Assembly (NCBI RefSeq): GCF_024436435.1
Contig: NZ_JAFMZP010000002.1
Location: 434,001 to 498,000 of the forward strand
Source of the DNA: Desertivirga xinjiangensis
GTDB lineage: Bacteria; Bacteroidota; Bacteroidia; Sphingobacteriales; Sphingobacteriaceae
Direction of reading: 5' to 3'
Length of the DNA: 64,000 bases
How positions within the stretch are numbered: position 1 is the stretch's first letter; every line of letters begins with the position of its first letter. The notes under the pieces were generated by a model. That model was not told the origin of the DNA. It saw nothing but the letters and a program-made list of their open reading frames with translations, and made no database searches. The translations under genes and the position numbers were made by a program. Of the stretch, positions 33,805 through 40,503 are shown in pieces.

Positions 33805-34548
33805 ATGGAATTTAACCCCCACAACCTAGTTATTCAACTTTGCATGCAGGGAATGGCCCTGGAAGACAAAGGGCAACCGGTAGAAGCAGCCGGTCTTTTC
33901 CTTCGGGCCTGGAACGAAGCGAAAAACGACTTTGAAAAGTTTATTGCCGCTTGGTATGTGGCCAGGGTTCAGCCAGATGTTTCTGACAGGGCGAAGTGGT
34001 ACGAAACCACATTAGAATTAATCCTGGAGGTTAATAATGACGCTGTTAAGGGGGCGTTTCCTGCGCTGTATTCCAATTTGGCAAAAAGTTACGAGGAGCT
34101 CGGCGACTTCGATAGCGCAAAAAAGTATCACCATTTAGCCTCAGCACCGGCGAGCCAACCCTCCGACAAAGGTCCCTTTTATCATGGGACCAGAGCAGAC
34201 CTCCAGGTGGGTGATCTGCTGACCGCCGGTCGCAATTCAAACTACCAAACGGAACTCACGATGAACCATATTTATTTTACCGCCCTCGTTAACGGAGCAG
34301 GTCTGGCCGCTGCCTTAGCAAAGGGCGAAGGGGCGGAGCGAGTTTATACAGTTGAGCCCACAGGCGATTTTGAGGATGATCCCAATGTGACCAACAAAAA
34401 ATTTCCGGGCAATCCAACCCGTTCTTATCGAACCCGGGAACCTTTGAAGGTCATTGGTGAGGCAACGGAATGGTCAAGGCTAACGCCTGAGCAATTACAA
34501 CAATGGCGGAAAAAACTCGCTGATAACCAGGGAGAGATTATTAATTAG
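33805..34548 (+). CDS. arr: Rifampin ADP-ribosyltransferase (Arr) with TPR-like N-terminal domain
   Basis: 247 residues; start preceded by AGGAG. The N-terminal ~110 residues are helical and TPR-like (QGMALEDKGQPVEAAGLFLR, YSNLAKSYEELGDFDSAKKY). The C-terminal ~125 residues are the Arr domain, with its catalytic triad visible as His127 (FYHGT), Tyr157 (HIYFT) and Asp191/192 (FEDDPNVTNKKFPGNPT). Arr transfers ADP-ribose from NAD to the 23-hydroxyl of rifamycins, giving resistance. Classic Arr enzymes are the C-terminal part alone. The fused N-terminal domain occurs in many Bacteroidetes homologues and its role is unclear. Resistance itself is predicted, not shown. Confidence 0.9.
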   Translation: MEFNPHNLVIQLCMQGMALEDKGQPVEAAGLFLRAWNEAKNDFEKFIAAWYVARVQPDVSDRAKWYETTLELILEVNNDAVKGAFPALYSNLAKSYEELGDFDSAKKYHHLASAPASQPSDKGPFYHGTRADLQVGDLLTAGRNSNYQTELTMNHIYFTALVNGAGLAAALAKGEGAERVYTVEPTGDFEDDPNVTNKKFPGNPTRSYRTREPLKVIGEATEWSRLTPEQLQQWRKKLADNQGEIIN

Positions 34549-34712: not shown

Positions 34713-35303
34713 ATGGTTCTAAAACCGCTATATAGTGATTTTGAGCTGTTGCAAAAGATAGCAGCAGGAGATGAACATGCCTTCAAATTATTCTATTATA
34801 AGTATAATAAGACCGTTTACCTTTATGCATACCGCATCCTTGACTCTGACTTACATGCCGAGGAATTGATGCAGGAAGTTATGCTAAAGATCTGGATGTT
34901 GGGGGATGAATTACTGGGAGTGAATCATCTGGAAGATTACTTGAGGACTATGTGTCGCAATCGTTGTTACAACAAACTACGGCAATTGAGAAGAGAGGCT
35001 TCTAAAAACAGGGCTGCTACAGACGACTGGAAAGATGAAAGCAATGTGACCGAAGAGACGATATTGTTAAATGAAGCAAAAGGCCTTCTTGAAGAGGCTA
35101 TCGCAAAGTTACCTGCCCAACAGCGTAAAGTTTATAATTTGTGCCAGGTTCAGGGCCTTAAATATGAAGAGGCTGCCAGGCAGCTTGATATTTCTGTTCT
35201 AACCGTTCAATCTTATATGAAAATAGCTTTGCGCTCCATTAGGGCAAATATGCGTAATCATACTGGCGCGGTGGTAATACTGCTTACGTTAATTTATAGA
35301 TAA
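34713..35303 (+). CDS. ECF sigma factor (FecI-like)
   Basis: 196 residues. Region 2 is seen at residues ~28-90 (FKLFYYKYNKTVYLYAYRIL, AEELMQEVMLKIWM) and region 4 at ~125-180 (LEEAIAKLPAQQRKVYNLCQ, YEEAARQLDISVLTVQSYMK). Such sigma factors are activated when an STN-domain receptor signals through a FecR protein. The anti-sigma gene and an STN-SusC gene follow directly, so this is the regulator of the ribose-type locus. The C-terminus ends in a hydrophobic tail (AVVILLTLIY). The last ~50 bases and downstream flank are duplicated behind the stop. Confidence 0.93.
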   Translation: MVLKPLYSDFELLQKIAAGDEHAFKLFYYKYNKTVYLYAYRILDSDLHAEELMQEVMLKIWMLGDELLGVNHLEDYLRTMCRNRCYNKLRQLRREASKNRAATDDWKDESNVTEETILLNEAKGLLEEAIAKLPAQQRKVYNLCQVQGLKYEEAARQLDISVLTVQSYMKIALRSIRANMRNHTGAVVILLTLIYR

Positions 35304-35439: not shown

Positions 35440-36639
35440 ATGGAAGATCATAGAATCATAATTCTATTCAATAAGATTCAGCAAAAAGCAGCTACTGCCG
35501 AAGAACAACAGGAGTTTGATGAGCTTTTACAGGATAAGCTGGCGGAGCAGGCTTTGAAAACGTATTGGGATCAGCAGTGGAGGGAAGTCCTTGCTGAGGA
35601 TAAATCCTCATGGCAAATCCCGAAAGAACAGGAGATCCTGAACCGTATTCTATCCCATAGAAATAGTAAGTCGAAAAAATCGCTTAATTACAGATTTATG
35701 GCCGCTGCTGCCAGTATATTAATCGTAATGGCGGCTGGCTTGTTTTTCCTCAATCAGGAACGTACGGCATCACCGAAGCAGTCTAAGATTGTTAATATTG
35801 TTCCGGGAAGAAATACGGCCACACTTACCCTGGCTAATGGTAAAAAGATAAAACTATCTGATGCTGCCAACGGCGAACTGGCGAATGAGGCCGGAGTGAA
35901 AATTACAAAGTCTGAGGATGGGGAAATTACTTATGAAATTGTAGGAGGCAATCCTGATAATGATTCTGGCTCAGGTTCGGATAACTGGAATACACTTTCG
36001 ACGACAAATGGAGAAACGTACCGGGTCCGTTTGCCTGATCATAGTGAGATCTGGCTTAATGCCGCTTCGTCAATCAAATATCCGGTAAACTTTGCAAAGC
36101 AGGCAACACGAAAGGTGGAACTGACCGGAGAAGCCTATTTTGAGGTCGCAAAAGATAAAAGTCGTCCTTTTATTGTACACACGAAAGATCAGGTAGTTCA
36201 TGTTCTGGGAACACATTTTAACGTAAACGCTTATGAAAACGAACACTACATAAAAACAACTTTGGTGGAAGGAAGTGTTCGTGTACAACGCGTAAATACC
36301 GGAAAATCGACCATAGAAACCGAGCCCCAAATATTAAAACCTGGAGAACAGTCGCTTTTGTCTGAACAGGGGATTAAAGTAAGGCAAGCTGATATAGAAG
36401 AGTCGGTTGCCTGGAAAATGGGATTCTTTAAATTCAGAGATGAAAACATACAGAGCATTATGCGCAAGGTCTCGCGCTGGTATAATGTGGAGGTGGTATA
36501 CGTTGGAGAAATCCCGACCAGCGGTATAGAGGGATCTGTGTCCCGTTATGACGATATCAATCAGCTGCTGGATCTGTTAGAATCTACGGGCCTGGTTAAA
36601 TTTAAGATCAGGAATAACAAGATCATAGTGAGCAAATAA
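35440..36639 (+). CDS. FecR-family anti-sigma factor
   Basis: 399 residues. The cytoplasmic N-terminal part (~1-85) would bind the sigma factor, one membrane helix spans ~87-105 (MAAAASILIVMAAGLFFL), and the periplasmic part holds the FecR domain (~185-285; LPDHSEIWLNAASSIKYPVN, VELTGEAYFEVAKD, VLGTHFNVNAY). The C-terminal DUF4974 domain (~330-399; MRKVSRWYNVEVVY) contacts the STN domain of the receptor. The stop overlaps the first TAACCAA box of the susC leader. Its role is to hold the sigma factor until the receptor senses substrate. Confidence 0.93.
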   Translation: MEDHRIIILFNKIQQKAATAEEQQEFDELLQDKLAEQALKTYWDQQWREVLAEDKSSWQIPKEQEILNRILSHRNSKSKKSLNYRFMAAAASILIVMAAGLFFLNQERTASPKQSKIVNIVPGRNTATLTLANGKKIKLSDAANGELANEAGVKITKSEDGEITYEIVGGNPDNDSGSGSDNWNTLSTTNGETYRVRLPDHSEIWLNAASSIKYPVNFAKQATRKVELTGEAYFEVAKDKSRPFIVHTKDQVVHVLGTHFNVNAYENEHYIKTTLVEGSVRVQRVNTGKSTIETEPQILKPGEQSLLSEQGIKVRQADIEESVAWKMGFFKFRDENIQSIMRKVSRWYNVEVVYVGEIPTSGIEGSVSRYDDINQLLDLLESTGLVKFKIRNNKIIVSK

Positions 36640-36655
36640 CCAAGTATTTAACCAA
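36637..36655 (+). promoter_or_regulatory. Paired TAACCAA boxes, leader copy 1
   Basis: TAACCAA at 36637-36643 and 36649-36655, 12 bases apart. The first box uses the TAA stop codon of fecR. It is a candidate site for the cognate ECF sigma factor or another regulator. Confidence 0.5.
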
Positions 36656-36667
36656 AATAATAAATCT

Positions 36668-36688
36668 ATGAAAATTAGACCAACCTAA
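36668..36688 (+). CDS. Leader mini-ORF MKIRPT, copy 1
   Basis: ATG AAA ATT AGA CCA ACC TAA. It encodes the same six residues as copy 2 at 36983-37003, but with a different Ile codon and stop codon. It lies 31 bases before a hairpin. Translation is not proven. Confidence 0.45.
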   Translation: MKIRPT

Positions 36689-36718
36689 AATGGGTAAAGG
36701 AAGTCCGGAGTAATAAAA

Positions 36719-36748
36719 AACGTGAAAGTGTCTCACCACTTCCACGTT
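36719..36748 (+). promoter_or_regulatory. Leader hairpin, copy 1
   Basis: AACGTGAAAGTG and CACTTCCACGTT form a 12-position stem with one A-C mismatch and a TCTCAC loop. No T tract follows, so it is not a simple terminator. Confidence 0.6.
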
Positions 36749-36950
36749 ACATGCATGGGCTATTCAATACCTGGACCATGTCCGGATAAATAATCGAAAA
36801 GAAATCTTGAATAAACCCAAACAATCAAAAGTATGAATTTTAATGCTTTTATCAAGGCTCCGTGCCGTGTTACCTGATCTGACAATAGCGCAGGATAGTA
36901 ATGTGATATTGAATGTGTTATTTAAGCAGTTAGCTAGTATTAGCTAGAAT

Positions 36951-36968
36951 TAACCAAATATTAACCAA
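36951..36968 (+). promoter_or_regulatory. Paired TAACCAA boxes, leader copy 2
   Basis: TAACCAA at 36951-36957 and 36962-36968, 11 bases apart and 32 bases before the mini-ORF, as in copy 1. It would drive the functional susC gene. Confidence 0.5.
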
Positions 36969-36982
36969 GTAACAAACAAGAT

Positions 36983-37003
36983 ATGAAAATAAGACCAACC
37001 TGA
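36983..37003 (+). CDS. Leader mini-ORF MKIRPT, copy 2
   Basis: ATG AAA ATA AGA CCA ACC TGA. The peptide is identical to copy 1, and the only differences are synonymous (ATA for ATT) or stop for stop (TGA for TAA). This is what selection on a translated leader would leave, although two differences are few. Confidence 0.45.
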   Translation: MKIRPT

Positions 37004-37032
37004 ATTCTTGTTAGGGAAGCTTAGAGCGAAAA

Positions 37033-37062
37033 AACCTGAAAGTGTCTCACCACTTTTAGGTT
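37033..37062 (+). promoter_or_regulatory. Leader hairpin, copy 2
   Basis: AACCTGAAAGTG and CACTTTTAGGTT pair fully (one G-U) around the same TCTCAC loop. Relative to copy 1, the fourth pair has changed from G-C to C-G, a compensatory change supporting the RNA stem. The susC start lies 82 bases downstream. Confidence 0.62.
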
Positions 37063-37143
37063 GACGCCTGGGCTATTCAATATCTGGACCAAACGGATAA
37101 ATAATCGAAAAGAAATCTTGAATAAACCCAAACAACCGAAAGT

Positions 37144-40100
37144 ATGAATTTTAATGCTTTTATCGGGACTGCTATGTCTATAGCTTTCCGGTATAGAAAA
37201 ACACTATTAGTTATCAGAATAACTGTTATCATATTACTCATGGGCTTGATGCAGGTAAGCGCGTCAAGCTTCGCTCAGAAAATAAATCTTTCGTCGAAGA
37301 ATGCAGATTTGCAGGAGGTGATAGAGCAGCTGAGAAAACAAAGCGGCTACAATTTTTTGTATATCAAAGATATAATCAGCAGGGCGAAACCTGTTACTGT
37401 ACAATTCAAGGATCTTAGCATTGAAGAGGCACTGAATAAGATATTTACCGCACAGCCCTTGATCTATCAAATTAAGGATAAAACGGTAATCATCAAACCT
37501 AGGCCGGATAAGCCTGCAGCCGAGGTCCAGAAAATTCCTGTCACCGGAACGGTCCGAGATGAAAACGGAGAAACACTCATTGGGGTGTCTGTATTGATAA
37601 AGGGCACTAAAACGGCCACTGTTACCAATTCCGAAGGGGTTTATACCATTCAGGCCGAGCCTGGATCAGTATTGGTTTTCAGTTATATCGGTTACCAGAC
37701 ACAGGAGGTTACGGTAGGAACGAATCTTAGTATTGATGTGTCGCTGAAGGCTGTGGCGGGTGGCCTGGATGAGGTGGTTGTCGTTGCCTACGGTACGAGG
37801 AAAAAGGAAACGGTTACGGGGGCAATTGCTTCTATTAAGACCACGGAAATTAAACAGAGTCCTGCAGCAAACCTGGCGGTTACGCTAGCTGGAAGGTTGC
37901 CGGGTTTAACGGCTATTCAGCGCAGCGGTCAGCCAGGAAGGGACATTACACAGCTGTTTATCCGGGGACAGGGAACCGTAAATGCACAAAGTCCGATAGT
38001 CCTGGTGGACGGTATAGAACGTGACTTGACTTATATTGATCCTAACGAGGTGGAATCGGTGACAATTTTAAAGGATGCCTCATCTACGGCTATTTTCGGA
38101 GTGAGAGGAGCCAATGGTGTCATTTTGGTGACCACCAAAAGAGGAACCTCTGAAACACCGGAGATCAATTTCGTAACCGAGATCGGCGCGCAGGACTTTC
38201 CTCGTTTTATCAGCCCTGTTAATGCCTATGATTTCGCAACCTTAAAAAACCTGGCGCTTACTAACGACGGATTACCTGCAGAATATTCTGCCCAATCGCT
38301 GGATTATTATAAAAGTCAGGAAGACCCTTTGCGTTTCGCCAATACTGACTGGCGCAACCTGCTGGTGAAAGACTATTCTTTTCAGCAACGGTATAACCTG
38401 AATGTTTCGGGCGCTAGTAAATCGACCAAGTACTTTGTAAATGCCGGTTACTTAAGTCAGGGCGGGCAGTTCAATACTGAAGAAGATCTGAGCTATGATC
38501 CTGCTTTTAAGCTTAACCGGTATAATTTCAGATCAAATATTGATATCCGCCTCAATAAGAACTTAAAGGCATTTTTGAACGTAGCGGGTTACCTGGAGCA
38601 GCGTAATAGTCCCTATGCTTTGGGTGGCGACAACCCAACAGACTGGATCATCTACTTTATGAACCGGATGCCTGCAGTGGTACCGGGACCGCTCACTCCC
38701 GATGGCCAGGTGATTACTTATTCAGACATTGACCACCCTGCCTACGGACTGATTAACCGCTCGGGTTATACACAGCAGAAACGAAGTAATGTATTAGCAA
38801 CCTATGGGATGGAGCAAAATCTTGACTTTATCTCCAAAGGTTTGTCAGCGAGGGCTGTCGTTTCCTTCGACGCCCGAACTATCAATAATCTGGAGGCCAC
38901 AAGGAAGTATGAAAAATATGTACAGATCATAAATCCTAATTTAAAGGGGGCAGATGGGCGCGACAGTGTGTACTACAGGCCGTTTAACAGTGATCAGAAT
39001 ACACCTTTAGCCATTGGGGGAGGCCGCAATTTTGAGACTTTGTCGAATTTTCAGGGCTTTATAAATTATGCAAGAAATCTTGGGAAACATGACTTCTCAG
39101 GCATGTTGCTTTATCAGCAACAAAACAATGTGATCAATAACGAGCTGCCATTCAAGTTAATGGGGCTGGCTTCCAGGTTCACTTATGGTTACGGCTCACG
39201 GTACTTCCTGGAATTTAATGCAGGATACAACGGCTCCGAACAGTTTGCTGAGGGGCAGAGGTTTGGTTTTTTTCCGGCAGTTTCTGCCAGCTGGGTTATC
39301 TCTAATGAATCCTTCTTACAAAATAATACTGTCGTCAATTTGCTGAAACTGAGAGGTTCGGTAGGTAAAGTAGGTAATGATCGCATCGGCAGCAGACGAT
39401 TTTTATACCTGGACGATATACAGGTTGTCGGCGGTGGCTTTTCCGGGAGCCTCGGCAATGCGCAAACCATTAATTATAACCTGTTGAAAAATTCGCAGTT
39501 ACAATGGGAGGTCGCAAAAAAATACAACCTGGGATTGGAAATAGGTTTATTCAACCAGTTTAATCTGGTAGCAGATGTGTTTTATGAAGAAAGAGACAAC
39601 ATCCTGCGTAACAGGGGGACAATTCCCGATCTCAACGGGCTTCCCATCTCTGTATTACCACCAGTAAACATTGGTGTGGTTGAAAACAAAGGGTTTGAAG
39701 TTGAGCTGAACTATAAGAAGTCTTTCAACAGGGATCTTTCGATGCTTGCCCGTGTTAATGTAAATTATGCAACCAACAGGCAGATTTATGCCGACGAACC
39801 ACTGTTGCCGGTAGATTATGCATACCGTTACAGGGAAACAGGTTACCGGATAGGTCAGATGTTCGGATATGTGGTTGATGGGTATTTTACTGATCAGAAT
39901 GATATTGCAAATTCTCCCGTGCAAATTGTAGGCGGGCATGAATCAAGACCTGGAGATTTCAAATATAGAGATCTGAACAACGATAACCTGGTTAATGAAC
40001 GAGATATAGCTCCAATTGGTTATTCAACAGTTCCGGAGTACCAGTATGGGGCGGCATTTAACGTAACTTATAAAAACCTGGATTTCAGTGTGTTGTTTCA

Positions 40101-40503
40101 GGGGATATCAAATGTTTCTAACTACTATAGTGACCAGGGCGTTTTTGGTGATAAGAATTATATAGCCAGGCACCTGGAAAGCTGGACGGAAGAACGTGCA
40201 GCAGGCGGGATGCCCATTAACTATCCTCGACTATCTACGCAGTCAAATCCCAACGAAAGGCCAAATTCCTTTTTTATACTCGACGCAAGTTATCTGAGAT
40301 TGAAAAATATGGAAATCGGCTATACCCTGCCTTCCAAATGGACCAGCGTGATTGGGACAAAGCGTTTGCGGATTTATGCTAACGGTTTGAACCTCTTTAC
40401 ATGGGATAAATTACCTACTACGGAGTTCGATCCGGAGTTGACGAACAGCCGGGATTATCCTATCACAAGGCTATACAATTTAGGTGTAAACTTTACTTTT
40501 TAA
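37144..40503 (+). CDS. STN-domain SusC/RagA-type TonB-dependent receptor
   Basis: 1119 residues. A long signal region ends SASSFAQ near 42. The STN signalling domain follows at ~45-118 (LQEVIEQLRKQSGYNFLYIK), then a carboxypeptidase-D-like sandwich (~132-205; VTGTVRDENGETLIGVSVLI), the TonB-plug domain (~212-330; LDEVVVVAYGTRKKETVTGA, GANGVILVTTKRG) and the beta-barrel to the C-terminal F. The STN domain passes a substrate signal to the FecR protein encoded upstream. It should import the locus substrate together with the SusD-like protein that follows 10 bases later. The close homologue in the B. theta ribose system would be RusC, by context. Confidence 0.95.
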   Translation: MNFNAFIGTAMSIAFRYRKTLLVIRITVIILLMGLMQVSASSFAQKINLSSKNADLQEVIEQLRKQSGYNFLYIKDIISRAKPVTVQFKDLSIEEALNKIFTAQPLIYQIKDKTVIIKPRPDKPAAEVQKIPVTGTVRDENGETLIGVSVLIKGTKTATVTNSEGVYTIQAEPGSVLVFSYIGYQTQEVTVGTNLSIDVSLKAVAGGLDEVVVVAYGTRKKETVTGAIASIKTTEIKQSPAANLAVTLAGRLPGLTAIQRSGQPGRDITQLFIRGQGTVNAQSPIVLVDGIERDLTYIDPNEVESVTILKDASSTAIFGVRGANGVILVTTKRGTSETPEINFVTEIGAQDFPRFISPVNAYDFATLKNLALTNDGLPAEYSAQSLDYYKSQEDPLRFANTDWRNLLVKDYSFQQRYNLNVSGASKSTKYFVNAGYLSQGGQFNTEEDLSYDPAFKLNRYNFRSNIDIRLNKNLKAFLNVAGYLEQRNSPYALGGDNPTDWIIYFMNRMPAVVPGPLTPDGQVITYSDIDHPAYGLINRSGYTQQKRSNVLATYGMEQNLDFISKGLSARAVVSFDARTINNLEATRKYEKYVQIINPNLKGADGRDSVYYRPFNSDQNTPLAIGGGRNFETLSNFQGFINYARNLGKHDFSGMLLYQQQNNVINNELPFKLMGLASRFTYGYGSRYFLEFNAGYNGSEQFAEGQRFGFFPAVSASWVISNESFLQNNTVVNLLKLRGSVGKVGNDRIGSRRFLYLDDIQVVGGGFSGSLGNAQTINYNLLKNSQLQWEVAKKYNLGLEIGLFNQFNLVADVFYEERDNILRNRGTIPDLNGLPISVLPPVNIGVVENKGFEVELNYKKSFNRDLSMLARVNVNYATNRQIYADEPLLPVDYAYRYRETGYRIGQMFGYVVDGYFTDQNDIANSPVQIVGGHESRPGDFKYRDLNNDNLVNERDIAPIGYSTVPEYQYGAAFNVTYKNLDFSVLFQGISNVSNYYSDQGVFGDKNYIARHLESWTEERAAGGMPINYPRLSTQSNPNERPNSFFILDASYLRLKNMEIGYTLPSKWTSVIGTKRLRIYANGLNLFTWDKLPTTEFDPELTNSRDYPITRLYNLGVNFTF

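Follow-up and report, generated by a model that had tools for sequence, protein, structure and literature searches.

We describe here an RNA leader that lies between the anti-sigma gene fecR and the porin gene susC in a 64,000-nucleotide (nt) stretch of the Desertivirga xinjiangensis genome (contig NZ_JAFMZP010000002.1, positions 434,001 to 498,000; hereafter the window), and that recurs upstream of many susC genes in related soil bacteria. The leader comprises a very short open reading frame (mini-ORF), a hairpin (P1), and three elements: e1 between the mini-ORF stop and the hairpin (consensus about AGGGnnnCUCAAAA), e2 just 3' of the hairpin (about UUUGAGUUAACCCUU), and e3 5' of susC (about UUAACCCAAAC). 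Element e2 pairs either with e1, in a helix P0 that closes P1, or with e3, in the long-range helix P2, but not fully with both. Comparison across relatives supports the mini-ORF as an ORF, as well as P1, P0, P2 and three further hairpins, P3, P4 and P5, and indicates that e2 is common to two mutually exclusive helices, each with comparative support of its own. Located before many genes for sugar-uptake porins, the leader probably sets the amount of porin made, and on balance we favor its interpretation as a two-state element coupled to an upstream ORF, which would tune susC by translational attenuation, layered on control by the extracytoplasmic function (ECF) sigma factor and FecR. SusC porins are the glycan-uptake gates of Bacteroidota, and their FecR/ECF control has been treated as transcriptional; the leader would add a translation-level layer to many FecR-susC loci, constitute a new RNA family for annotation, and provide a handle on structure-based initiation control in bacteria that do not use Shine-Dalgarno sequences.

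BLAST searches with the second of the two leader copies in the window mostly matched the susC start motif alone, and the leader family emerged from the sequence 5' of those matches, which follows a common plan: fecR stop, mini-ORF, hairpin, long-range complement, susC. A covariance model (R1) built from 20 leaders, including P1 and P2, matches 274 of 399 sampled genomes of the Sphingobacteriaceae at an E-value of 0.01 or better, in 16 of 25 genera and at up to nine places per genome, where only nine were scored. For comparison, 100 leaders from 60 genomes were hand-picked from about 150 best-scoring places among the R1 matches listed, so that weaker members are under-represented; one of them, L188, is the same place as the seed sequence L039, and 75 of the 100 form the non-redundant set. 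The ORF directly upstream is FecR with FecR_C in 100/100 (Pfam), and the frame directly downstream carries STN and CarbopepD_reg_2 in all 94 testable leaders, with Plug in 80 of these 94 partial sequences; the six omitted were five without an ATG at the modelled start and one whose frame closes after 45 codons. Taking a FecR directly upstream and an STN receptor directly downstream as the mark of a FecR-controlled susC locus, all leaders that could be assessed (100/100 and 94/94) lie in such a locus. The first susC ATG is absent in five of the 100, and the susC start may therefore vary. Separately, in the SusC proteins here about 20 additional N-terminal residues precede a second Met, which lies within a conserved KLLLIMKLT stretch (window 37144-37210).

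Approached by FecR similarity only, 22 of 80 loci have an R1 match at E 0.01, all 22 just 3' of fecR and on the same strand, and by eye many of the remaining FecR-found loci show, besides a mini-ORF and a hairpin, a variant of the long-range pairing. In a class-level sample of 295 genomes, 12 genomes have an R1 match at E 0.001, six of them outside Sphingobacteriaceae, in five other families; those inspected by eye mostly have the hairpin and the start region but no obvious mini-ORF. The distribution of R1, the frame test below and the covariation of P1 uphold what a preliminary description of the window had proposed, a functional leader with a conserved mini-ORF and a covarying stem, and the lack of such conservation at other loci, which it had named as decisive against the idea, was not what we saw. 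Its proposed signature did not hold for the family: the exact pattern ATGAAAATNAGACCNAC matches 9 of 399 family genomes, most of these matches not being shown to be leaders, and a search of the window's own genome with the exact P1-loop and mini-ORF pattern found only the two copies without mismatch. The exact mini-ORF sequence and the TCTCAC loop are features of a small subfamily.

The mini-ORF is more than a chance occurrence of start and stop codons. Among the 73 usable leaders of the 75 (L131 and L141 were omitted because their model starts lie only 23 and 1 nt behind fecR), 64 have an ATG ORF of 2-12 codons that ends 12-40 nt before the hairpin, against 14.4 with dinucleotide-shuffled spacers (sd 3.4, largest 26); where several ATGs were candidates, Leu or Ile at codon 5 was preferred. 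For a test of frame, leaders were chosen by the pattern ATG-N10-TAC, a choice that uses the UAC motif at +14 to +16 and neither stops nor Leu. This pattern is present in 55 of the 73 leaders, compared with at most seven for any other spacing from 0 to 25. An in-frame stop precedes the hairpin in all 55, versus 23 and 31 in frames +1 and +2, and in 47 of the 55 a distance of 20-40 nt separates the stop from the hairpin, versus 3 and 8 in the other frames; the start, frame and stop position of the mini-ORF have therefore been selected. Its length is 3-11 codons, with the stop about 29 nt 5' of P1, and typical peptides are MKRKLQKH, MKKNLQPKS, MREHLQYRR and MKRALRTR, or just MEK and MKK. The sequence before mini-ORF starts is rich in A at positions -13 to -11 and at -4 and -3; in Flavobacterium johnsoniae, according to the available text of PMC6847099, A at -3, -6, -12 and -13 favors initiation. 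L131 offers no space for a mini-ORF, and there it is the stop of fecR that lies 23 nt before the model start, an anecdote that on its own favors the position of the stop as the point.

Within the mini-ORF, codons 5 and 6 are unusual. Of 41 Leu codons at position 5, 40 have A as their last base (31.5% in neighboring genes) and 19 are CTA (6.5% in neighboring genes); at position 6, CGA accounts for 14 of the 17 Arg codons (6.7%). The UAC at +14 to +16 is conserved as sequence, and six leaders (L147, L157, L163, L164, L172 and L176, of which L163 and L176 resemble near copies) keep it behind an in-frame stop. The window's own mini-ORF is without the motif, and in the FecR-found set a short ATG ORF is present in 40 of 48 gaps but the corresponding.TAC.A at codons 5-6 in only 12. 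In an open scan of leader parts (see below), pairing of the motif with other parts gave no strong signal, the nearest being z -3.16 for hp0-40 with the ATG window. Sequence conservation of this kind, shared by GUG...CAC at the P1 loop, would suit a landing site for a trans-acting small RNA (sRNA) or an RNA-binding protein, for which loop, UAC and e3 would be the contacts and the mini-ORF secondary. FopS and RbpB in Bacteroides set a precedent, and the UAC kept behind a stop in six leaders fits such a contact; still, a binding site alone leaves the in-frame stop and the complementarities e1:e2 and e2:e3 unexplained, and we consider it unlikely.

A different origin of the conserved motifs would be DNA signals, with the TAACCAA boxes and the UAC belonging to an ECF promoter or an antisense promoter. 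Cis-antisense control of polysaccharide utilization loci (PULs) is known in Bacteroides, the UAC is at a fixed place, and TAACCAA is enriched before the mini-ORF, with at least one box in 16 of 64 leaders against a mean of 1.5 and a maximum of 5 after mononucleotide shuffling. Yet the spacing from TAACCA to ATG is loose across leaders, and compensatory pairing and constraint on a reading frame are features of RNA and translation, which makes DNA signals a highly improbable account. The paired boxes that the preliminary description reported 31-32 bases 5' of both mini-ORFs are indeed there in the window, starting at -31 and -19 relative to the first mini-ORF ATG and at -32 and -21 relative to the second, the first box being overlapped by the fecR stop codon; as a conserved element the pair fails, since two boxes occur in 0 of 64 leaders. 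By eye, a GG-CTAACCA-CC arrangement recurs between fecR and mini-ORF in L018, L025, L094, L145, L151 and others, possibly as a small hairpin or part of a promoter.

The second line of evidence concerns the helices. In an alignment fitted to the model, all 11 pairs of P1 and six of nine pairs of P2 change on both sides, with 256 double-change cells versus 76 shuffled and at most 37 slid. Comparing the duplex energies of own with foreign strands in the 75 leaders gave z -5.17 for e1:e2 and -3.09 for e2:e3, while 16 control pairs lay between -1.55 and +2.25. Under stricter thinning, e1:e2, e2:e3 and e1:e3 gave -3.46, -3.05 and 0.75 (n=39) and -3.32, -2.35 and -0.08 (n=18). P0 is absent from R1. 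Since R1 does contain P2, the e2:e3 test is biased for leaders found with the model, and loci found by FecR provide an unbiased repeat. In 39 such thinned loci, e1:e2 reached -2.75 and e2:e3 -3.64; the hairpin was chosen automatically here, and in some loci the choice fell on a different one. A pairing between e1 and e3 was rejected (z 0.06 in the 75 leaders and 0.17 in the 39 FecR-found loci). The open scan, covering 406 pairs of scanning windows (mean z 0.12, sd 1.56), placed P3 first at -10.95, with P5 at -9.21, P0 at -5.28, P4 at -4.73 and P2 at -3.77. P5, at about susC codons 8-16 (L093-L192), covaries strongly (z -9.2) though coding, and is situated just past the stretch that an initiating ribosome would cover. 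The second strand competing for e2, the long-range pairing to the susC start, the start-codon and first-codon hairpins and the UAC motif had all been missed in the preliminary description.

Two exclusive helices with a common strand are also the usual expression platform of ligand-binding riboswitches, and a riboswitch could control the susC start via P0 and P2. A search of Rfam 15 returned no match at the gathering threshold in the window, where relaxed settings gave a single minus-strand match to mir-4657 (22.1 bits versus a threshold of 73), and one tRNA only at 13 other leader loci; outside the GUG/CAC loop closure we noticed no large conserved unpaired core, although no dedicated core test was made. 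A riboswitch therefore appears very unlikely to us.

How would a two-state leader act? In the translational attenuation that we favor, translation of the mini-ORF would decide between the two helices. With a ribosome positioned at the stop codon of the mini-ORF, e1 would be covered and e2 free for e3, and the resulting e2:e3 pairing would fold the region 5' of the susC start and lower susC initiation; with the mini-ORF idle or quickly cleared, P0 would retain e2 and the susC start would stay open. In the 100 relatives, the e3 core stops 11-15 nt short of the susC ATG. P2 lies at and just 5' of the region whose openness aids initiation in Bacteroidota; initiation in this phylum proceeds without Shine-Dalgarno pairing and is aided by lack of structure, as stated in the available text of PMC6847099. 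In predicted folds of 64 free leaders, P0 has a mean of 7.0 pairs and P2 0.9. In simulations that keep the mRNA unpaired as far as 14 nt beyond the mini-ORF stop, P0 drops from 7.0 to 3.3 and P2 rises from 0.9 to 2.5, P2 increasing in 33 of 64 leaders and decreasing in seven (p 1.3e-5).

Several observations weigh against translational attenuation in this form. Occlusion to only +10 hardly shifts P0 (7.0 to 6.3; P2 1.1), and for the susC start region no significant shift in predicted accessibility results (a decrease in 21 and an increase in 14 of 64; p 0.28). The window's own copies do not follow the family mean: in copy 2, e1 starts 14 nt past the stop and P0 keeps its 9.7 pairs on covering to +14, and copy 1 adopts the P2 form (11.1 pairs) whether covered or not. 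P2 is only the eighth strongest of the 406 pairs in the open scan, where the largest positive z is 3.49, and is thus not convincing from that scan alone. Codons 5-6 are constrained at the RNA level, and hence the mini-ORF may matter as RNA. Finally, by eye, many FecR-susC gaps in the window's genome have a hairpin but neither mini-ORF nor P2. The direction of control, in which a ribosome at the stop leads to P2 and less susC, is the weaker part of our interpretation, and both this direction and the cause of ribosome slowing are guesses. More speculative still, and doubtful in our view, is that the minimal start-stop ORF with UAC at +14 to +16, retained even after a stop, constitutes a phylum-specific ribosome parking signal gating the P0/P2 switch; the condition of the translation apparatus, instead of a ligand or an amino acid, would then set the output of the costliest outer-membrane proteins in FecR-controlled sugar uptake.

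The hairpin-only gaps are perhaps the ancestral minimal form of the leader. They also bear on another explanation, in which P1 and the closing helix would be a processing or differential-stability element that marks where a scarce sigma-fecR message gives way to an abundant susCD one. In the window's genome there are 39 FecR_C matches, some being STN parts of susC genes; of the 30 inspected loci, 10 have R1 at E 0.01 or better, and those other than the window's score low and generally miss the mini-ORF. The presence of P1-like hairpins in many gaps, even where mini-ORF and P2 are missing, speaks for a processing element. However, a mini-ORF whose stop has a set position and a helix reaching the susC start are more than such an element would need, and we hold it to be quite unlikely.

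In the window itself, the locus reads ECF sigma gene, fecR, leader copy 1, a 14-codon susC-start remnant, a 74-nt linker, leader copy 2, STN-type susC and susD, followed by a gene for an alpha-L-rhamnosidase (GH106). The coordinates of the features are listed in the table below.

Table. Features of the fecR-susC locus (window positions; z and pair numbers as described in the text)
Feature	Positions	Strand	Evidence
ECF sigma factor gene (context)	34713..35303	+	Pfam Sigma70_r2, Sigma70_r4_2
fecR anti-sigma gene	35440..36639	+	Pfam FecR 9.7e-20, FecR_C 2.7e-18
Copy 1 mini-ORF, MKIRPT and stop (Ile ATT, stop TAA)	36668..36688	+	Sequence; family-level ORF tests
Copy 1 e1 (AGTCC), can pair with GGGCT 3' of hairpin	36702..36706	+	Sequence; predicted scarcely used, P0 0.07 pairs
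Copy 1 hairpin P1, TCTCAC loop	36719..36748	+	Repeat comparison, fold; R1 97 bits; family covariation
Copy 1 e2 (TGGGCTATTCAA), P2 5' strand	36756..36767	+	Expected 11.1 P2 pairs (predicted fold)
Copy 1 hairpin P3	36770..36786	+	Predicted fold; P3 position covaries in family, z -10.95
Copy 1 e3 (TTGAATAAACCCA), P2 3' strand	36807..36819	+	Predicted fold; identical in copy 2
susC-start remnant, MNFNAFIKAPCRVT and stop	36833..36877	+	71-nt repeat, 97% identity to susC start
Linker between copies, 74 nt	36878..36951	+	No similarity above shuffles to window fecR/susC or L236, L270, L062
Copy 2 mini-ORF, MKIRPT and stop (Ile ATA, stop TGA)	36983..37003	+	Sequence; family-level ORF tests
Copy 2 e1 (AGCTTAGAGCG), P0 5' strand	37018..37028	+	Expected 9.7 P0 pairs (predicted fold)
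Copy 2 hairpin P1, TCTCAC loop	37033..37062	+	Repeat comparison, fold; R1 92.1 bits
Copy 2 e2 (CGCCTGGGCTATTCAA), P0 3' strand and P2 5' strand	37065..37080	+	Predicted fold; family pairing tests
Copy 2 hairpin P3	37081..37098	+	Predicted fold
Copy 2 e3 (TTGAATAAACCCA), end 13 nt before susC ATG	37118..37130	+	Predicted fold; position kept in relatives
P4, weak hairpin containing susC start codon	37138..37161	+	Predicted fold; family covariation z -4.73
susC (TonB-dependent receptor with STN domain)	37144..40503	+	Pfam STN, CarbopepD_reg_2, Plug
P5, hairpin in first susC codons	37162..37192	+	Predicted fold; family covariation z -9.21

The two copies have diverged, being 82% identical over the leader (BLAST), and are therefore not one sequence doubled by the assembly; direct repeats in blocks of 26-71 nt, with 79-97% identity, link them at a spacing of 311-315 nt. 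We could verify the coordinates and the shared elements given in the preliminary description, including the peptide MKIRPT in both copies with its synonymous Ile codons and exchanged stops. Its account of the hairpin is equally accurate: the TCTCAC loop is kept, the fourth pair changes from G-C in copy 1 to C-G in copy 2 and an A.C mismatch becomes A-U; a further change from G-C to G-U had gone unmentioned. One correction concerns the arrangement, as it is copy 2, not copy 1, that directly precedes the susC ATG, copy 1 terminating in the susC-start remnant. Both folds are stable compared with shuffles (z -2.75 for copy 1 and -4.13 for copy 2). The nearest relatives, G316 (84% identical) as well as L236 and L270 in Pedobacter sp. 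ok626, a genus that belongs to Sphingobacteriaceae, all have a single leader, with the mini-ORFs MKIKPT, MKIRPT and MKIRPT, respectively; between window and relatives, the mini-ORF changes only in third bases of Ile and Pro codons, one Arg/Lys exchange and one stop swap. The tandem doubling noted in the preliminary description thus looks peculiar to the window locus, while the leader itself is widespread. An origin of the linker as a remnant of fecR or susC was rejected, its similarity not exceeding that of shuffles; one of its frames (frame 2) is open over 30 codons until a TAG. A gene for a rifampin ADP-ribosyltransferase domain protein (Arr-ms, 5.9e-48; window 33805-34548) adjoins the PUL.

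Finally, we would like to compare the leader with known regulatory systems. As the preliminary description had supposed, no element of this form seems to have been described: in the literature searched, which comprised open-licence papers, we found no earlier account of such a leader, and Rfam offers no match. In Bacteroides thetaiotaomicron, the sRNA FopS and RbpB control susC translation (PMC11697453), and the post-transcriptional control by our leader would likewise act at the start of susC translation; FopS, however, acts in trans and the available text of that report describes no mini-ORF, whereas the pairing partners in our leader are in cis. The 54-nt leader of the roc mRNA from the same species confers a promoter-independent response to sugars by an unknown mechanism (PMC10294740). 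It resembles our leader in governing the gene behind it; neither a mini-ORF nor competing helices are described for it in the available text. FecR/ECF sigma signalling with STN-type receptors features the same gene order of sigma, fecR, leader and STN susC; its known control is transcriptional, and the leader would add a later layer. The closest parallel lies in the translational attenuators of the ermC type, in which mutually exclusive helices lie behind a short translated ORF, one helix being close to where the downstream gene starts. Our leader shares this layout, with one of its helices near the susC start. In contrast to the ermC type, it has no known inducer or stalling peptide, precedes nutrient-uptake porins, pairs through P2 5' of the start instead of with a Shine-Dalgarno sequence, and carries an RNA-level motif in its ORF. 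Two of the traits expected of an attenuator, a short upstream ORF selected as an ORF and mutually exclusive helices, the latter by comparison only, were found, and the earlier suggestion of a translated attenuator lives on in the two-state leader that we lean towards: an element resembling translational attenuators with a leader ORF, if not a proven member of the class.

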